Virus record (IMG/VR): IMGVR_UViG_3300027857_000048
Coordinates: 1 to 29,243 of that record
Length of the DNA: 29,243 bases
Direction: 5' to 3' (one strand)
Source of the DNA: a virus
Shown: one piece after another, positions 14,426 to 26,608 of the stretch
Position numbering within the stretch: position 1 is the stretch's first letter
Layout of the letters: every line of letters starts with the position of its first letter
Position numbers and translations under genes: made by a program
Notes under the pieces: model-generated
The model's input: only the letters and a program-made list of their open reading frames with translations
Told to the model about the DNA's origin: nothing
Databases searched by the model: none

Positions 14426-14644
14426 ATGAGCGATATAGACGAGAAATCCGTTATGTTAGGCCAACATGAAGCGCGATTGGATAGCGTTGAGGCCACACTC
14501 AACGAAATCCGCGGTGATGTAAAGCGGCTCGTTGAGTACATGGACCGCGCCAAGGGTTCGTGGAAAACGTTGGTCGCTATCGGCGGTATCACCACGGCGG
14601 TAGTTGAAGGCGTTCACCAACTTGTCGGATGGTTGCACAAATGA
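14426..14644 (+). CDS. Small coiled-coil, one-TM protein (XhlA/holin-like)
   Basis: This 72-aa protein starts at ATG 14426 with AAGG at 14417-14420. Residues 1-40 are a soluble helix with heptad-like spacing (VMLGQHEARLDSVEATLNEI, RGDVKRLVEYMD), and residues about 47-68 form one hydrophobic span (TLVAIGGITTAVVEGVHQLV) followed by GWLHK. This layout matches the XhlA family, which is linked to the holin function in phage lysis. It overlaps the endolysin start by ATGA, which places it in the lysis cassette. A single-pass helper to a holin is the likeliest role; it could also be the holin itself. No second holin-like gene lies close upstream. Confidence 0.62.
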   Translation: MSDIDEKSVMLGQHEARLDSVEATLNEIRGDVKRLVEYMDRAKGSWKTLVAIGGITTAVVEGVHQLVGWLHK

Positions 14645-15168
14645 CGCGAGACGAAGCTGTAGCGTTGATGATCCGCCTGGAGGGCGGCGAGGCGAACGTT
14701 AAAGGCGATCCGGGCGGGCACACCAAGTACGGTATCACGCAAGCCACGTTGGATTCGTACCGCAAAAACGCACCACTACTTGGGCTGCCCACCAACGTGG
14801 CGAATTTGACCACTACACAAGCGGCGGTTATTTACATCGATGTTGATTGGGATGCTATGCAGTGCGACGAACTGCCCGCACCACTCGCCGCGTTGATGCT
14901 CAATTCTGCGGTGAATCAAGGCGAGCCCACCGCCGTAGGGCTACTGCAAGAATGTCTGGGATTGCGTGTTGACCGTTTGATGGGGCCCGCTACGTTGGCT
15001 GAGGTCGCCACGTGGAAGTCTAAGTACATGCCTGAACAGACTCTTGCGGAAGAGTTTGCCGCGCGCGTAGCAGTTCGTTACGCCTCGCTCAACCGCACCG
15101 AGTGGCAATTCGAGTTAGGTTGGATGCGGCGGTTGTTCCGCATCTATACCCTCGCCATCTCCGGATAG
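14641..15168 (+). CDS. GH108-type endolysin (N-acetylmuramidase)
   Basis: ATG 14641 overlaps the previous stop (ATGA) and gives 175 aa; an upstream ATG at 14629 would add four residues. The N-terminus AVALMIRLEGGEANVKGDPGG contains the E-G-G segment with the likely catalytic Glu14, followed by the D-P-G-G-x-T-x-x-G-I-T motif typical of GH108 muramidases. The middle (TQAAVIYIDVDWDAMQCDELP, ALMLNSAVNQGEPTAVGLLQ, LGLRVDRLMGPATLAEV) and C-terminal FELGWMRRLFRI are in family order. There is no signal peptide or SAR segment, so release would need a holin, provided by a neighbour. It cleaves the glycan backbone of peptidoglycan at the end of infection. The last bases overlap an opposing gene (15115-15357). 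Confidence 0.9.
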   Translation: MTRDEAVALMIRLEGGEANVKGDPGGHTKYGITQATLDSYRKNAPLLGLPTNVANLTTTQAAVIYIDVDWDAMQCDELPAPLAALMLNSAVNQGEPTAVGLLQECLGLRVDRLMGPATLAEVATWKSKYMPEQTLAEEFAARVAVRYASLNRTEWQFELGWMRRLFRIYTLAISG

Positions 15169-15678: not shown

Positions 15679-16287
15679 ATGAAGCACCTTGGCACGTACC
15701 TTGCGCATTACATGGCGCTCCTGGCAGGACTCGCCGCCGGTGTCGCATCCTTCAAGCCAGCCCTATTCGAAACCTTCTTGCCGTTCCTCGGCCCCCACGC
15801 GGCCGGGATCATCGGTGGTGCCGCCGCCCTCGTGGCCGCGCTCCATGCGCTCGGGATCGACCCGCCAAAGGCCGCCGCCGCGCTCCTCGTGGGCGTACTG
15901 TCCGCCGGTACGTTACATGGTTGCGCCACGCCGCCCGCTGGCGCATCGCTCGCCCAGGCCGCGCCCTTCGTGGAAGCTGCCGTCGATGTCGCCGTCGCTA
16001 CGGCCGAATCTAAGGGCCTACAGCCGGCGCAAATCAATGCCATCGCCAAACTTGCCTTGGCCGCCGACGAGGGCTCCACGGCGAGCCTGAGCGCGATTGC
16101 AGTTGTCGTCAACGCGGAGCTGTCGAAGCTCGCGCTACCGCCGGGTGATGTAGCCGCCGCGCTCATCCTCGAGGATGCGTTGCGCGTGGCCATCACGGCG
16201 CGACTTGCCAACGATCCCAGTGCCGCGCAGGTGCAGGCCGCCGCCGCGCTCGTGATTCAGGATGTCATCAATGCTACCGGAGGTTAA
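15679..16287 (+). CDS. Ala-rich membrane protein with lipobox-like motif (possible holin or spanin-type)
   Basis: The 202-aa protein starts at ATG 15679. Residues 9-24 (AHYMALLAGLAAGVAS), about 41-59 (AAGIIGGAAALVAALHALG) and 66-80 (AAALLVGVLSAGTLH) are hydrophobic. LHGC follows at 79-82, a lipobox-like motif, and residues 83-202 are a soluble, Ala-rich helical tail (EAAVDVAVATAESKGL, INAIAKLALAADEGS, AAALVIQDVINATGG). The layout could be a membrane-anchored lipoprotein, a holin with a long soluble tail, or an outer spanin-like protein with an unusual N-terminus. Position after the endolysin and before secreted and hydrolase genes favours a lysis role. No overlapping spanin frame looked convincing. 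The family is not recognised. Confidence 0.5.
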   Translation: MKHLGTYLAHYMALLAGLAAGVASFKPALFETFLPFLGPHAAGIIGGAAALVAALHALGIDPPKAAAALLVGVLSAGTLHGCATPPAGASLAQAAPFVEAAVDVAVATAESKGLQPAQINAIAKLALAADEGSTASLSAIAVVVNAELSKLALPPGDVAAALILEDALRVAITARLANDPSAAQVQAAAALVIQDVINATGG

Positions 16288-22873: not shown

Positions 22874-23964
22874 CACGCCACCCCTTCGACTGGCAGACCG
22901 GCAATCAGCGAATCGAAGTCGCGGTCGATTGTCGGAATGAGGTGCGTATACTCGGGGTTGCCCAACGCCATAAGATTCGGCGCGCCGTGCTTCTGCACCA
23001 CGGGCGATACCAACCGCGGATCGAGCTGTTTGTCCCGCGTGGCAGCAGTCAACTTGTTCATCAGTTGACGATACTCGTCAGCTGCTACGGACACCCCAGG
23101 AGCAGCCCCAGCGGCGGCATCGACGACGGCCGATCCAACCTGTGCGGGTCCGGGTACAACACCCGGCATTGCGTAGGCTGGTGGCGGTGGAGGCACCATT
23201 GTAGCGGCGGGGACTGGCGGGACAGGAGGCAGTGGCACGGAACCATTAAAGCCGAGGGGGCTTGGGGGAAGTTGCACCTGTGGCGGCGGTGGGTTCCACG
23301 TGACGATTGCCGGCTCGGCCGGCCGAGGCGTCACGCCCATAGCGGCAACTCCCGCAGATACCCCAGCGTGCGGGGCAACGCGGCGCGCGCTCAACTCTTG
23401 AATCACCTGTTGCGCGACGGTTGGATCGAGCCCCTTGATGAGCTTCCACGTGCCGTCTTGCTTTTTCGAGTGCTTCTTATTGTGGATACGGCCATCCCAC
23501 GGCAGACCAGAAGAATCGTACTCAACTGGTCCAGCCGCCGCGATTGTCGTCACAGGCGAGGCATTGTTCGGGGCTGCCGTAGGCACCGGGGGCACAAACA
23601 CCGGGGGAACGGATGATGTGGTAATGGCAGTGCTTGTTACGGTGCTTGATTGCGGGGCATTTGCAACAGAGTTGACAGGCCCAGCAGGCGGCGCAACAGG
23701 CAATGGAGGTATGGGTTGCGCAGTAGGGGCAGAAATGGGGCTCGTATTGTACGGGGCGCTCGGAGCGGGCGGCGCCGGAGGAAAAGGTACTACGTTGCTG
23801 CGCGCGGCGCTGGGCGCTGGCTGCGTCACAGTTCCCGCGGGAGCTGCCGGGGCATCCCCCGAAACCTCGAGTTGCGGGATATCACCGGCCAGCATCAAGA
23901 TTGCGGCGGCGGCGGCACGGTACTGCGCGGGGCCATCGTGGGCAGAGTCGATTTCAATTCGCAT
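22873..23964 (-). CDS. Pro-rich phage protein with conserved LPWD/RIH core
   Basis: This 363-aa protein is the first gene of the leftward replication operon. The N-terminal 30 residues (EIDSAHDGPAQYRAAAAAIL) are followed by a long Pro/Ala/Thr-rich linker (about 35-145). A conserved core GLPWDGRIHNKKHSKKQDGT then WKLIKGLDPTVAQQVI lies near 155-190; this motif is widespread in unnamed phage proteins. A second Pro-rich linker (about 210-285) leads to a C-terminal helical part (ADEYRQLMNKLTAATRDKQL, ALGNPEYTHLIPTIDRDFDS). The repeated linkers make it about twice the size of its core. Its place beside DUF2800 and SSB genes points to a DNA-recombination or replication accessory role. Function not known. 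Confidence 0.7.
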   Translation of the reverse strand: MRIEIDSAHDGPAQYRAAAAAILMLAGDIPQLEVSGDAPAAPAGTVTQPAPSAARSNVVPFPPAPPAPSAPYNTSPISAPTAQPIPPLPVAPPAGPVNSVANAPQSSTVTSTAITTSSVPPVFVPPVPTAAPNNASPVTTIAAAGPVEYDSSGLPWDGRIHNKKHSKKQDGTWKLIKGLDPTVAQQVIQELSARRVAPHAGVSAGVAAMGVTPRPAEPAIVTWNPPPPQVQLPPSPLGFNGSVPLPPVPPVPAATMVPPPPPAYAMPGVVPGPAQVGSAVVDAAAGAAPGVSVAADEYRQLMNKLTAATRDKQLDPRLVSPVVQKHGAPNLMALGNPEYTHLIPTIDRDFDSLIAGLPVEGVA

Positions 23965-24005
23965 GGGTTTCCTCGAATAAAATTTTTGGGTTGCAGGCGG
24001 AGCGC

Positions 24006-24034
24006 ATCGTATGCTTAACTGACGCCCTCGTCAA
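24006..24034 (-). promoter_or_regulatory. Leftward sigma70-like promoter of the replication operon
   Basis: On the minus strand, TTGACG (24034-24029) is followed after exactly 17 bases by TACGAT (24011-24006). The transcript would begin near 23999 and reach the first gene start at 23964, which has AGGAAA before it. This is the best promoter in the window and probably drives the genes from 23964 down to about 17131. The rightward gene at 24046 starts close by, but no equally good rightward promoter is visible. Confidence 0.6.
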
Positions 24035-24045
24035 CTGGAGTGCAC

Positions 24046-24231
24046 ATGGCCGCAAAAATACACATCAGTTCGTTTATCCTCTGCACCGGCCGTAAATGGC
24101 AGCGGGGCTCAATGCGGTTCAGTACGTATGCGGATAACATCACATGCCGAAATTGCCAGCGCTACATTATGCGTAGTTATATGTTAACTACTCGCGAGAA
24201 AAATCGCTTGCGTAAAAAATGGGGGATGTAG
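24046..24231 (+). CDS. Small Cys-containing protein, possible zinc finger
   Basis: ATG 24046 has GGAG five bases before it (24037-24040) and gives 61 aa; GTG 24040 would add two residues. The product begins MAAKIHISSFILCTGRKW, then RGSMRFSTYADNITCRNCQRYI and ends with a basic tail (TTREKNRLRKKWGM). Cys13 and the C-x-x-C pair (Cys34 and Cys37), perhaps with His6, could hold zinc. The basic C-terminus suggests nucleic-acid binding. It stops one base before the TTG start of the helicase gene, whose ribosome site (GGGGGA) it contains. Confidence 0.65.
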   Translation: MAAKIHISSFILCTGRKWQRGSMRFSTYADNITCRNCQRYIMRSYMLTTREKNRLRKKWGM

Positions 24232-25932
24232 TTGACTCTCCGCGACTTCCAAATCGAGATGCGCGACGCAATCTATCAGCGTTGGCAGGAACCGAACGTA
24301 TTTAACGTAATGGGTGTGCTGCCCACGGGGGGTGGGAAGACTGTCCTTTTCTCAAGCATCGTGCGAGACTTCGGGACGCCCGCATGCATCATCGCGCACC
24401 GCCTGGAACTGGTCGCGCAAGCCTCGCTCGCGTTGAACCGCGAAGGAATCCCGCATGACCTTATCGCCCCCAAAGATGTCAAACACGCCATCACGAAAGT
24501 ACATCACGACAATCACGGTAGCAGTTTTTATCGTAGCGGTAGCCCTATTCGCGTTGCTGGTGTTGATACCCTGGCGAATCTTGATGGCCATGATCGTTGG
24601 ATGTCACAAGTTGGTATCGTGGTGCCGGATGAAGGTCATCACATTTTACGTGCAAATAAATGGGGCAAACAAGTACTACGGTTCCCCAACGCGCGTGGAT
24701 TTTTTCCTACGGCTCACGCTTTACGCGCTGACGGGCGTGGCTTGGGGCGCGGCGCTGACGGGCTGGCGGATAGCTTGGTTATGGGGCCAAGCCCTAGGCA
24801 TCTCATTGAACGTGGTTATCTTACTGACTATCGTTTGTTTTGCCCATCTTCTGATGTTGATTTCAGTAACGTACCTATTGGTTCTTCAGGTGAGTACAGT
24901 GCCCCGCAGCTACGAGCCGCCACGCATGCGTCCAATAGCATCGTCGGCGACATTGTCAAACAGTACCTCAAACACGCGGCGGGAAAGTTAGGTGTCACGT
25001 TTGCAGTTGACGTTGAGGCGGCCAAACAACTTGCGCAAGCGTACCGGGCGGCGGGAGTGCCGGCGGAAGTCATTACGGCGGATACGCCAATCGCCGTGCG
25101 CTCCCAACTCATGCAACAATTCCGGTCCCGTGTTTTGCTTCAGCTCGTATCCGTGGACTGCCTTGGTGAGGGTACAGACGTGCCTGCAATCGAGGTTGTC
25201 AGTATGGGGCGTAAAACAGCATCTTTCCAGCTGTTCGCGCAACAATTTGGCCGAGCGCTCAGAGTTATGGTCTCGGATGAGCACGCATCTGCGTGGAATA
25301 CTTACACGGATGCCCAACGCCGCGCAGCTATTGCTGCGTCAACGAAACCTAAAGCCATAGTGATAGATCATGTTGGAAACACAATTTTTCACGGATTGCC
25401 AGACGTCCCTAGATCGTATTCGCTTGAACGTGCGGAGACACGAACGCGCGCAAAGACGGGTGTTGAGGCTCTTAAAGCATGCCCCGAATGCACTCGGCCC
25501 TATGAACGTTTCCACGCTCATTGCCCTTACTGCGGCTACGAATGTCCACCGCGAAACCGAAGCTCTCCAGAACAAGTTGAAGGAGACATTATCGAACTGG
25601 ACGCAGCAATCCTTGCAAGTCTCCGAGGAGATATCGCGGCAGTTGATGGCCCTTCAGATGCGCGCGGGACGGATCTCGTAGGTAACAGCATCCGCAAACA
25701 GCATAAGGACCGGCAACAGGCGCAGTTCACACTTCGCAAGGCAATGGAACTTTGGGGTGGTTGGCGCATCCACGTGGGAGAGACTATCCGTGATGCGAAT
25801 CGTAGATTTTGGTACGCGTTTGGTGTAGATGTACTGACCGCCCAGACACTTGGGGTGCGTGATGCTGCGGAGCTTGAGGCGCGTATTCGCACTGAGTTAC
25901 AGCAACATAACGTGGAGGCACAACTTGTATGA
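24232..25932 (+). CDS. SF2 helicase (DEAD/DEAH-type) with C-terminal zinc ribbon
   Basis: The 566-aa protein starts at TTG 24232, preceded by GGGGGA. Motif I is PTGGGKT (31-37), motif II is VVPDEGHH (Asp133-His137, with Gly instead of Ala in DEAH), then the conserved block ILRANKWGKQVLRFPNARGF. Motif III reads PTAHALRADGRGLG (160-163 TAHA where relatives have TATP). Motif V/VI are LVSVDCLGEGTDVPA and FAQQFGRALRV. A C-x-x-C/C-x-x-C zinc ribbon lies at Cys417, 420, 431 and 434. It would unwind or remodel phage DNA near replication or recombination. The region from about 24500 to 24890 has wobble bases unlike the rest of the gene and a second open frame overlaps it. Confidence 0.88.
   Translation: MTLRDFQIEMRDAIYQRWQEPNVFNVMGVLPTGGGKTVLFSSIVRDFGTPACIIAHRLELVAQASLALNREGIPHDLIAPKDVKHAITKVHHDNHGSSFYRSGSPIRVAGVDTLANLDGHDRWMSQVGIVVPDEGHHILRANKWGKQVLRFPNARGFFPTAHALRADGRGLGRGADGLADSLVMGPSPRHLIERGYLTDYRLFCPSSDVDFSNVPIGSSGEYSAPQLRAATHASNSIVGDIVKQYLKHAAGKLGVTFAVDVEAAKQLAQAYRAAGVPAEVITADTPIAVRSQLMQQFRSRVLLQLVSVDCLGEGTDVPAIEVVSMGRKTASFQLFAQQFGRALRVMVSDEHASAWNTYTDAQRRAAIAASTKPKAIVIDHVGNTIFHGLPDVPRSYSLERAETRTRAKTGVEALKACPECTRPYERFHAHCPYCGYECPPRNRSSPEQVEGDIIELDAAILASLRGDIAAVDGPSDARGTDLVGNSIRKQHKDRQQAQFTLRKAMELWGGWRIHVGETIRDANRRFWYAFGVDVLTAQTLGVRDAAELEARIRTELQQHNVEAQLV
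24455..24991 (+). CDS. Possible overprinted multi-span membrane protein inside the helicase gene
   Basis: In the +1 frame of the helicase, ATG 24455 has AAGGA at 24443-24447 (seven bases before it) and opens 178 codons. The product has an N-terminal basic stretch, then hydrophobic spans at about 18-40 (VAVFIVAVALFALLVLIPW), 84-104 (FLRLTLYALTGVAWGAALTG) and 112-147 (ISLNVVILLTIVCFAHLLML then ISVTYLLVLQV), followed by a soluble Ser/Pro/Arg tail. Hydrophobic codons need T in the second position, which is the helicase wobble base; by hand count 63 of 140 helicase codons end in T across 24481-24900, against 3 of 40 just before and 3 of 20 just after. This could reflect a real second gene, or local composition only; the two facts are not independent. 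Confidence 0.35.
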   Translation: MTLSPPKMSNTPSRKYITTITVAVFIVAVALFALLVLIPWRILMAMIVGCHKLVSWCRMKVITFYVQINGANKYYGSPTRVDFFLRLTLYALTGVAWGAALTGWRIAWLWGQALGISLNVVILLTIVCFAHLLMLISVTYLLVLQVSTVPRSYEPPRMRPIASSATLSNSTSNTRRES

Positions 25933-26120
25933 AGACCTACACTGTTACGAAGCGATTCTCCGTGGACGTGGAGCGGACTATCAATGCCGAATCTATAGCT
26001 GAAGCGGAGGAAAAATCGAAAGAGCTTCCGCTTTCGCGGTTTTTAAAACCAGCTCCGGGGGCTCATATAGTAGATTGGGGCGGATTGAGCGGCACCAATA
26101 TCGCTGAGGAACGGGAATGA
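25929..26120 (+). CDS. Small hypothetical protein
   Basis: This 63-aa protein overlaps the helicase stop by ATGA and the next gene by ATGA. It starts MKTYTVTKRFSVDVERTINA and has ESIAEAEEKSKELPLSRFL, a strand-strand-helix pattern often seen in small phage proteins; the end is acidic (SGTNIAEERE). No catalytic motif or family is recognised. Coupled translation with helicase and nuclease genes supports it as a real gene of the replication/repair unit. Confidence 0.7.
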   Translation: MKTYTVTKRFSVDVERTINAESIAEAEEKSKELPLSRFLKPAPGAHIVDWGGLSGTNIAEERE

Positions 26121-26608
26121 ATCTCGTTGAATGGGCCGAGCGTTGGCGTATCTCGCCCGAGGCGATCAAAGAGTTATGTTTGACGTGTATCCACACGGGG
26201 CCGTGCGAGTCAGCCGATAGCGAAGGTGATGTGCAGGCGCGAATACGCCTCGCAGCAGCACGCACGGCCCGTTTAGCGTGGGGCGAGCAAACATACCTCT
26301 TCCGCAATAACCGTGGCGCCGGGCAATTGAGGAACGGCTCCTTCGTACGGTGGGGGCTCGCGAACGATTCCAAGGCAGTTGGCGACCGCGTCAAGTCGGG
26401 CGATCTCGTCGGTTGGGAGCAGGTGCGCATCGGCCCTGAGCACGTGGGTTCAGTCATTGCGCGGTTTCTCTCCATCGAAGTAAAGCGGCGCAACTGGAAG
26501 TTTGCGGCCACGGCGGAAGAATGCGCGCAGATTCAGTGGGCCGCCATCGTGAACGCGCAAGGCGGCCGGGCCGTGATAACCAACACTGACGGGAGTATAG
26601 CGACATGA
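26117..26608 (+). CDS. VRR-NUC-like PD-(D/E)XK nuclease
   Basis: The 163-aa protein has an N-terminal Trp/Arg segment (WAERWRISPEAIKEL), a Cys pair (CLTCIHTGPC), then a nuclease core: helix with Glu37 (EGDVQARIRLAAART), LFRNNRGAGQLRNGSFVRWG, LANDSKAVGDRVKSGDLVGW with Asp96, FLSIEVKRRNWKF with Glu121 and Lys123, and QIQWAAIVNAQGGRAVITN. This is the VRR-NUC pattern. Related enzymes cut branched DNA or nick; Holliday-junction or structure-specific cleavage during phage recombination is likely. The core is intact. It lies between small genes and ends in an ATGA overlap with the Cys-rich gene. Confidence 0.8.
   Translation: MNLVEWAERWRISPEAIKELCLTCIHTGPCESADSEGDVQARIRLAAARTARLAWGEQTYLFRNNRGAGQLRNGSFVRWGLANDSKAVGDRVKSGDLVGWEQVRIGPEHVGSVIARFLSIEVKRRNWKFAATAEECAQIQWAAIVNAQGGRAVITNTDGSIAT

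Follow-up and report, generated by a model that had tools for sequence, protein, structure and literature searches.

A probable membrane-protein gene overprinted in the +1 frame of a tailed-phage helicase gene

Gene E of phiX174, gene L of MS2 and Rz1 inside Rz of lambda are overlapping genes that occupy the same strand as their host gene in a shifted frame and encode proteins acting on the cell envelope. Their functions have been tested, and their host genes encode coat, scaffold or lysis proteins; to our knowledge, none of them lies in a helicase gene. Canonical holins, which are small, span the membrane one to three times and generally have a positive N-terminus, are usually encoded beside the endolysin. 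In yeast, de novo membrane proteins are reported to have arisen from thymine-rich non-genic sequence. Standard gene finding skips fully embedded frames, so that small membrane proteins of phages may be going unrecognized as a class.

In RNA phages, the sgl genes encode small membrane proteins, mostly unlike each other, that are embedded in the replicase gene (PMC7693330). Of the 33 sgl candidates active in E. coli, 21 are contained wholly inside rep in the +1 frame, and the sgl lysis proteins of related RNA phages are either found in the same place at 38-47% identity or have moved elsewhere (PMC7693330).

Here we analyse an open reading frame (ORF) embedded in the helicase gene of IMGVR_UViG_3300027857_000048, a virus record of 29,243 bases that is referred to in its entirety as the window; L-numbers denote the records, or the helicases, of its relatives. 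Based on the sequence comparisons below, we consider it likely that positions 24455-24991 are a protein-coding gene for a membrane protein, overprinted on the helicase gene in the +1 frame and on the same strand. Among the matches listed in a search of the literature on overlapping or embedded phage genes, titles and abstracts contained no +1 gene inside a tailed-phage helicase.

The helicase gene and the frame embedded in it

The window belongs to a tailed phage whose tail is contractile, and a stretch of a 52,660-base IMG/VR contig is identical to it over 7,698 of the 7,698 bases compared. Tail sheath, baseplate proteins and a GH108 endolysin are found in the left part of the window, and the right part has matches to DNA polymerase, a single-strand annealing protein, exonuclease, helicase, endonuclease and methyltransferase. 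The host gene of the embedded ORF, a superfamily 2 DNA helicase with a TTG start, is located at 24232..25932 on the + strand (phrog_16, E=1.7e-68; ResIII and Helicase_C). Its motif II, DEGHH, is encoded by codons 133-137 (24628..24642, + strand), with no ATG at codon 137 in the window. A search with the helicase matched 874 phage records and 139 plasmid records, all at <60% identity. Among the matches listed, the best phage record reached 47.4% and the nearest named phage was Shewanella phage SppYZU01 (47%), whose helicase has eight stops in the +1 frame. No match was obtained in a distant blastn search of the helicase against phages, and no relative was found by scanning bacterial genome contigs with two peptide patterns. 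Nearer helicases came from IMG/VR, namely L014 (72%), L015 (67%), L016 (63%), L116 (62%) and L095 (61%), with others at 50-58%.

Motif III of the helicase, at codons 159-163 (24706-24720), reads TAHAL in the window and is mostly TATP in the wider family. The odd TAHA form is the mark of a helicase subgroup and is present in relatives with and without the embedded ORF; its occurrence in the ORF-less L017, L020, L021 and L022 rules out that TAHAL was forced by the overprint. Upstream, a 63-residue ORF at 24040-24231 ends at the helicase start and has CxxC-like cysteines and sub-threshold zinc-binding matches.

The embedded ORF (24455..24991, + strand) lies +1 to the helicase, starts with ATG and comprises 178 codons predicted to specify a polytopic membrane protein. 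A Shine-Dalgarno sequence, AAGGA, is located seven bases ahead of this ATG (24443..24447, + strand). The initial annotation of this DNA had described a 178-codon +1 frame inside the helicase with an ATG seven bases after AAGGA, which is exact. We rejected the length of the ORF as evidence, given P=0.035 in whole-gene codon shuffles and a rank of 7th among 130 alternative-frame tests.

AlphaFold2 models the window product with low confidence as three helices (mean pLDDT 61), predicted at residues 12-71 (24488..24667), 79-114 (24689..24796) and 118-148 (24806..24898), all encoded on the + strand. The first of these includes the strongest hydrophobic span (residues 20-38) and the third a hydropathy peak (residues 120-138). 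The 60-residue form of L018 is modelled as one long helix (pLDDT 87, pTM 0.43), and a viral fold search with this model returned no match. Each of 16 forms has one to three strong spans by hydropathy, and the charge before the first span is positive in 14 of them, the exceptions being L095 and L019. Homologues of the product were sought in Pfam, PHROGs and phage records and none was found, nor did any holin family give a match worth the name.

Distribution of the frame among related helicases

L014 and L015 share with the window the same ATG (helicase codon 75), the same stop (codon 253) and the same 178 codons, and neither has a +1 stop over the stretch, where their +2 frames contain 18 and 17 stops. 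The ATG is preceded by AAGGA at a spacer of 7 in L014 and by AGG at a spacer of 8 in L015. The shared stop is formed by codons of the well-conserved GKLG stretch and thus says little by itself. As to whether the +1 frame stays open in homologues, it does so over all 178 codons in these two nearest relatives; in the T-rich relatives the core of the region (codons 137-196) is free of +1 stops except in L099, which has three, and shorter forms are interrupted upstream or downstream.

Counting near-identical helicases once, we found an excess of wobble T in codons 150-215 (P<1e-3) in 14 of 186 non-identical helicases including that of the window; 13 of these are among the 45 helicases with at least 50% identity, and one is among the 141 below that value. 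In a tree of 68 helicases, one clade (support 100/91) comprises the window, L014, L015, L116, L126, L018, L108, L016 and L095, and the excess reaches P<1e-3 in eight of these nine, with L015 at 7e-3. When a T label was given to 16 rows of the tree, including L015, L099 and L130 (1.4e-3), six changes were required, which suggests several gains or losses. The labelled rows outside the clade are L019, L106, L129, L114, L043, L130 and L099, and L100, the sister of the T-rich L114, is without T excess. L043 and L130 branch off separately in the helicase tree; their wobble positions are T-rich and their +1 frame is open over codons 95-214.

The frame does not begin at one place in all of these helicases, and its predicted product ranges from 60 to 178 residues among the relatives. 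In eight T-rich members (L126, L018, L108, L016, L019, L106, L129 and L114) an ATG at codon 137 follows GAGG after a spacer of six bases, both being part of the codons for motif II (DEGHH). In L095 and L116, codon 92 provides the start (ATG and TTG, respectively) a short way past a stop; the ribosome site is GAGG in the former and AAGG in the latter, at spacer 7 in both. The second His of motif II is encoded by CAT before G in 11 of 15 T-rich helicases vs 5 of 56 others, whereas the first is CAT in 5 of 15 vs 10 of 56, indicating that the bias towards CAT is stronger where an ATG results.

The position of these starts bears on a programmed frameshift, by which the helicase would be extended into a helicase-membrane fusion and no separate protein would be made. 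Such a frameshift would be accommodated by the opening of the +1 frame a few codons before the ATG (at codon 69 in the window, and at codons 61 and 67 in L014 and L015, respectively), but a Shine-Dalgarno sequence and ATG follow just past that point in all three, and in the eight relatives the +1 frame is closed until just ahead of the codon-137 ATG (at codon 129-132) and then open as far as a stop that lies between codons 197 and 267. We therefore regard a frameshift as very improbable.

Two further explanations for the distribution of the ORF were considered and rejected. A segment swapped by recombination is not indicated by the comparison of L100 (without ORF) and L114 (with ORF), which are 85% alike in codons 137-197 and 73-97% alike in five other blocks. 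Simple replacement of the ORF by a stand-alone membrane gene is not indicated either: such a gene was flagged near the helicase in 2 of 23 ORF-less records (L017 and L182, at ~2 kb upstream in both), as compared to 2 of 17 records that have a +1 frame (L106 and L059).

Frames of a similar kind are present elsewhere in the helicase family. The more distant L059 contains a 106-residue +1 frame at helicase codons 349-455, where wobble T is 0.51 inside and 0.14 outside; in L256, which is 77% identical to L059, T is 0.07 at that place and the frame has a stop. Among 19 relatives compared, the L059-type frame was detected only in the identical L255, and the other 18 have at least one stop. In L078, whose record includes a GH108 endolysin, a +1 frame of 70 residues at about helicase codons 345-420 contains two hydrophobic spans. 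Stop tests are weak for the L059 (P=0.12) and L078 (P=0.09) frames, which are suggestive of births at other places in the gene. As a whole, the sequence comparison suggests that such hidden genes may have arisen more than once in this helicase.

Wobble composition and stop avoidance

The wobble positions of the helicase are rich in T at 24481..24900 (+ strand), where 63 of 140 codons end in T, vs 3 of 40 upstream (24361-24480) and 3 of 20 downstream (24901-24960). These numbers reproduce exactly the hand counts from which the overprint was first proposed. The T-rich wobble was also said to be peculiar to this stretch, and indeed the 12 highest of 1,280 sixty-codon windows in 26 genes are all located here. 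Among 218 distinct helicases, strong windows for a single wobble base (P<2e-5) numbered 11 for T, one for A, none for C and one for G; ten of the 11 T windows are without a +1 stop, and the eleventh (L018) has only its own terminator. At P<5e-5, 185 helicases (that of the window left out) gave 13 windows for T, one for A, none for C and one for G, as compared to 8, 10, 6 and 5, respectively, in 592 flanking genes. One of these 13 T-window helicases, L005, has +1 stops. The only strong A window among the 218 helicases lies at about codon 456 of L296, with wobble A at 0.42 inside vs 0.08 outside (P=2.6e-10).

An AT-rich patch of other origin had been named as a possible source of this pattern, which the base composition contradicts. 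In 15 T-rich members (a set that leaves out L099), wobble T doubles from 0.215 outside to 0.442 inside the region and A halves from 0.178 to 0.089, and at four-fold codons T rises from 0.20 to 0.49. The silent first position of Leu codons has no T excess in the same members (0.28 outside, 0.21 inside, P=0.13), and in 30 T-poor relatives the wobble composition is little changed between inside and outside. Since T increases and A decreases at the wobble position only, the stretch is not an AT-rich patch. A second caution of the initial annotation, that T-richness and hydrophobicity are one signal seen twice, proved justified: the hydropathy of the +1 frame in 15 T-rich helicases (here with L099 and without L015, stops dropped) is 1.22, vs 1.21 in within-region shuffles. 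Therefore, we rejected hydrophobicity beyond T content as evidence.

A wobble T is the second base of a +1 codon, where it specifies a hydrophobic residue and never a stop, so that the openness of the frame and its T content are linked. For this reason synonymous codons were shuffled inside the region only, which retains the T content. The ORF of the window has 0 stops vs 7.3 expected, and 0 of 2,000 such shuffles were as low. Because the region was picked from the window, L014 and L015 provide the fair tests; these have 0 stops vs 2.4 expected (P=0.018) and 0 vs 4.6 expected (none of 2,000 shuffles as low), respectively. In the core (codons 137-196) of 15 T-rich members, with L015 in and L099 out and with related sequences counted as independent, there are 0 +1 stops vs 20.2 expected (sd 2.9). 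Including L099 in place of L015 gives 3 vs 21.3 (sd 2.9), with all three stops in L099. The other frames of the core (+2 and three antisense) contain 72, 23, 85 and 11 stops vs 69.4, 21.9, 74.8 and 11.0 expected, and none of them is depleted.

The +1 frame was also assessed in control regions of the same genes and in T-poor relatives, where, as in all stop counts over relatives, related sequences were treated as independent. Four of five control regions are within ~2 sd of expectation, and codons 20-79 have 47 stops vs 54.2 (sd 3.3). Codons 260-319, where wobble T is not high, are clearly short of stops (11 vs 20.9, sd 2.8), which suggests some +1 depletion elsewhere in the gene. In 31 T-poor relatives the core is slightly short of +1 stops (60 vs 68.9, sd 4.1).

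These results bear on whether the wobble T could have a non-coding cause, such as a preference for certain codons, a signal in the RNA or a local bias in mutation, of which the open hydrophobic frame would be a by-product. This would fit the automatic hydrophobicity of a T-rich +1 frame and its inability to make stops from wobble T, a hydropathy no higher than in shuffles of equal T content, the T-rich L099 with its three core stops, and the unconserved synonymous sites described below; yet stops are avoided beyond T content and in +1 only, A drops as T climbs without Leu first positions following, and start codons and ribosome sites are present and common to relatives. At the RNA level, an Rfam search of the window at gathering scores matched no RNA element, and positions 23900-26200 contain four promoter-like matches vs 2.2 (sd 1.6) and two terminator-like matches vs 2.3 (sd 1.5) in shuffles; an RNA element behind the T-rich stretch was rejected on these grounds. 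Overall, we consider a non-coding cause quite unlikely. The overprinting of a membrane protein, as originally suggested for this locus, is supported by the frame shared with relatives, the avoidance of stops beyond T content and the wobble-specific rise in T.

Sequence turnover and candidate roles of the product

Lowered synonymous variation in the host gene is typical of constrained overlaps, and is not required of fast-evolving ones. It had been expected across this stretch, but wobble identity is not raised in most of 19 pairs of helicases, and 10 pairs assessed with another measure gave the same result. Between the window and L014, wobble identity is 0.56 in codons 137-197 vs 0.54, 0.67 and 0.44 in three outside blocks. 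It is raised in the ORF-bearing pair L018/L126 (0.74, P=2e-5), lowered in L016/L095, both with the ORF (0.27, P=0.005), and likewise lowered in L100/L114, one of which is without it. For the closest ORF pair, L018/L108 (86%), the wobble measure is 0.53 (z 1.0) in the core vs 0.65 (z 9.1) outside. Synonymous variation that is not lowered argues against a slowly evolving overlap and leaves a fast-evolving one.

Compared with the +1 protein of the window, those of the two nearest relatives show 43% and 37% identity. With conservation not raised in most pairs, the frame is either kept open and hydrophobic under fast turnover of its sequence, or has several origins. We conclude that the putative overprinted gene is selected for hydrophobicity more than for sequence.

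We propose that ribosomes on the helicase message may restart at the internal Shine-Dalgarno sequence and ATG, which would yield a polytopic membrane protein of 178 residues. Selection on the +1 frame would push the helicase wobble positions to T and away from A and G with the helicase protein kept, and the outcome would be hydrophobic residues and an absence of stops in +1. The exact sequence of the membrane protein would be loosely constrained and could turn over fast. We infer that the ORF product is translated, inserted into the membrane and functional.

As to what this function may be, our leading guess, which we offer tentatively, is an envelope-perturbing lysis protein, either of the holin kind or resembling the products of the sgl (single-gene lysis) genes of RNA phages, or a regulator of such a protein. 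A possible functional partner is the GH108 endolysin encoded at 14629..15168 on the + strand (PF05838, E=2.2e-18; phrog_315 endolysin). PF05838 was detected in 10 of 43, 7 of 50 and 3 of 38 records of three searched sets. Across the 83 rows scored for both traits, GH108 is present in 9 of 13 ORF-bearing rows vs 8 of 70 others (Fisher P=3.5e-5). From the 43-record set, this table omits the short L014, L114, L108, L043, L021, L053 and L256, as well as L104, in which no tail sheath was found; L112 and L119 are omitted from the 50-record set, and the 38-record set is omitted altogether, including the GH108-positive L275, L277 and L303, except that L255 stands for the helicase-identical L059. A tail sheath could be identified in 33 of 42 records, and most GH108 absences are therefore not due to missing structural genes. 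The lysozyme PF00959, sought in 21 records, gave four matches, all of them in ORF-less records. Phylogenetically independent pairs for ORF and GH108 amount to 2.2 for and 0.1 against an association, too few for significance, and the co-occurrence of ORF and GH108 is not significant once phylogeny is counted.

The surroundings of the endolysin were also inspected for small lysis proteins. Just before it, at 14426-14644, the window encodes a small lysis-protein candidate, a 72-residue coiled-coil protein that is hydrophobic near its C-terminus and matches DUF7201 only below the threshold; a further small candidate, of the membrane-protein kind, lies nearby at 15679-16287. Both kinds recur near the endolysin of L016, L019 and L129, where a coiled-coil protein with a C-terminal hydrophobic stretch is accompanied by a further membrane protein. 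For L015, L018, L126 and L116, a simple rule that also misses the window's own small protein gives no convincing candidate within <=900 bases of the endolysin.

Alternatively, and next in likelihood after lysis, the gene may be real but its product may act early, in superinfection exclusion or in modifying the host envelope, instead of in lysis. The ORF is located in the replication module, with its start (24455) ~9.3 kb from the end of the endolysin gene (15168), beside which the two small candidates are already present; moreover, 4 of the 13 ORF-bearing rows are without a GH108 match, and fast turnover would suit an arms race. Given the higher frequency of GH108 in ORF-bearing rows, which counts against exclusion or envelope modification without being significant under the phylogeny, we judge this alternative to be somewhat unlikely. 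Roles other than lysis, exclusion or envelope change would account for the remaining share of the probability. For the overprinted gene itself, pairs with and without the frame (L059/L256 and L114/L100) make gene birth by overprinting, and the use of such proteins, directly testable, and other phage genes can be screened for the comparative signature, in which wobble T is raised, A is lowered and +1 stops are missing to an extent that composition does not explain.

Similar to gene E of phiX174, gene L of MS2 and Rz1, the ORF overlaps its host gene on the same strand in a shifted frame, and differs from these in having a helicase as the host gene. It resembles canonical holins in its one to three predicted spans and mostly positive N-terminus; however, unlike holin genes, it is ~9.3 kb distant from the endolysin, lies inside a helicase gene and has no family match. 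T-rich raw material is common to this locus and the yeast case, but is here provided by the wobble positions of an existing gene and not by non-genic sequence. As regards the sgl genes, the present case differs in that it concerns double-stranded DNA tailed phages with an endolysin, that the host gene is a helicase, and that the product is predicted from sequence, whereas lysis activity has been shown for sgl (PMC7693330). It resembles them in specifying a small protein with a predicted membrane span in +1 of a replication gene, and in the 43% and 37% identity of the +1 proteins found in the same place. The frames of L059 and L078, for which the stop tests are weak, might correspond to the moves of sgl genes between related phages. 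It is conceivable, although we would not yet favour it over all other readings, that the helicase gene of this group of phages is a recurrent cradle of membrane-acting, probably lysis, genes, which would be born, diversify fast and be lost repeatedly in more than one place, with motif II supplying the ribosome site and start, and which would be to tailed DNA phages what the lysis genes embedded in the replicase are to RNA phages.
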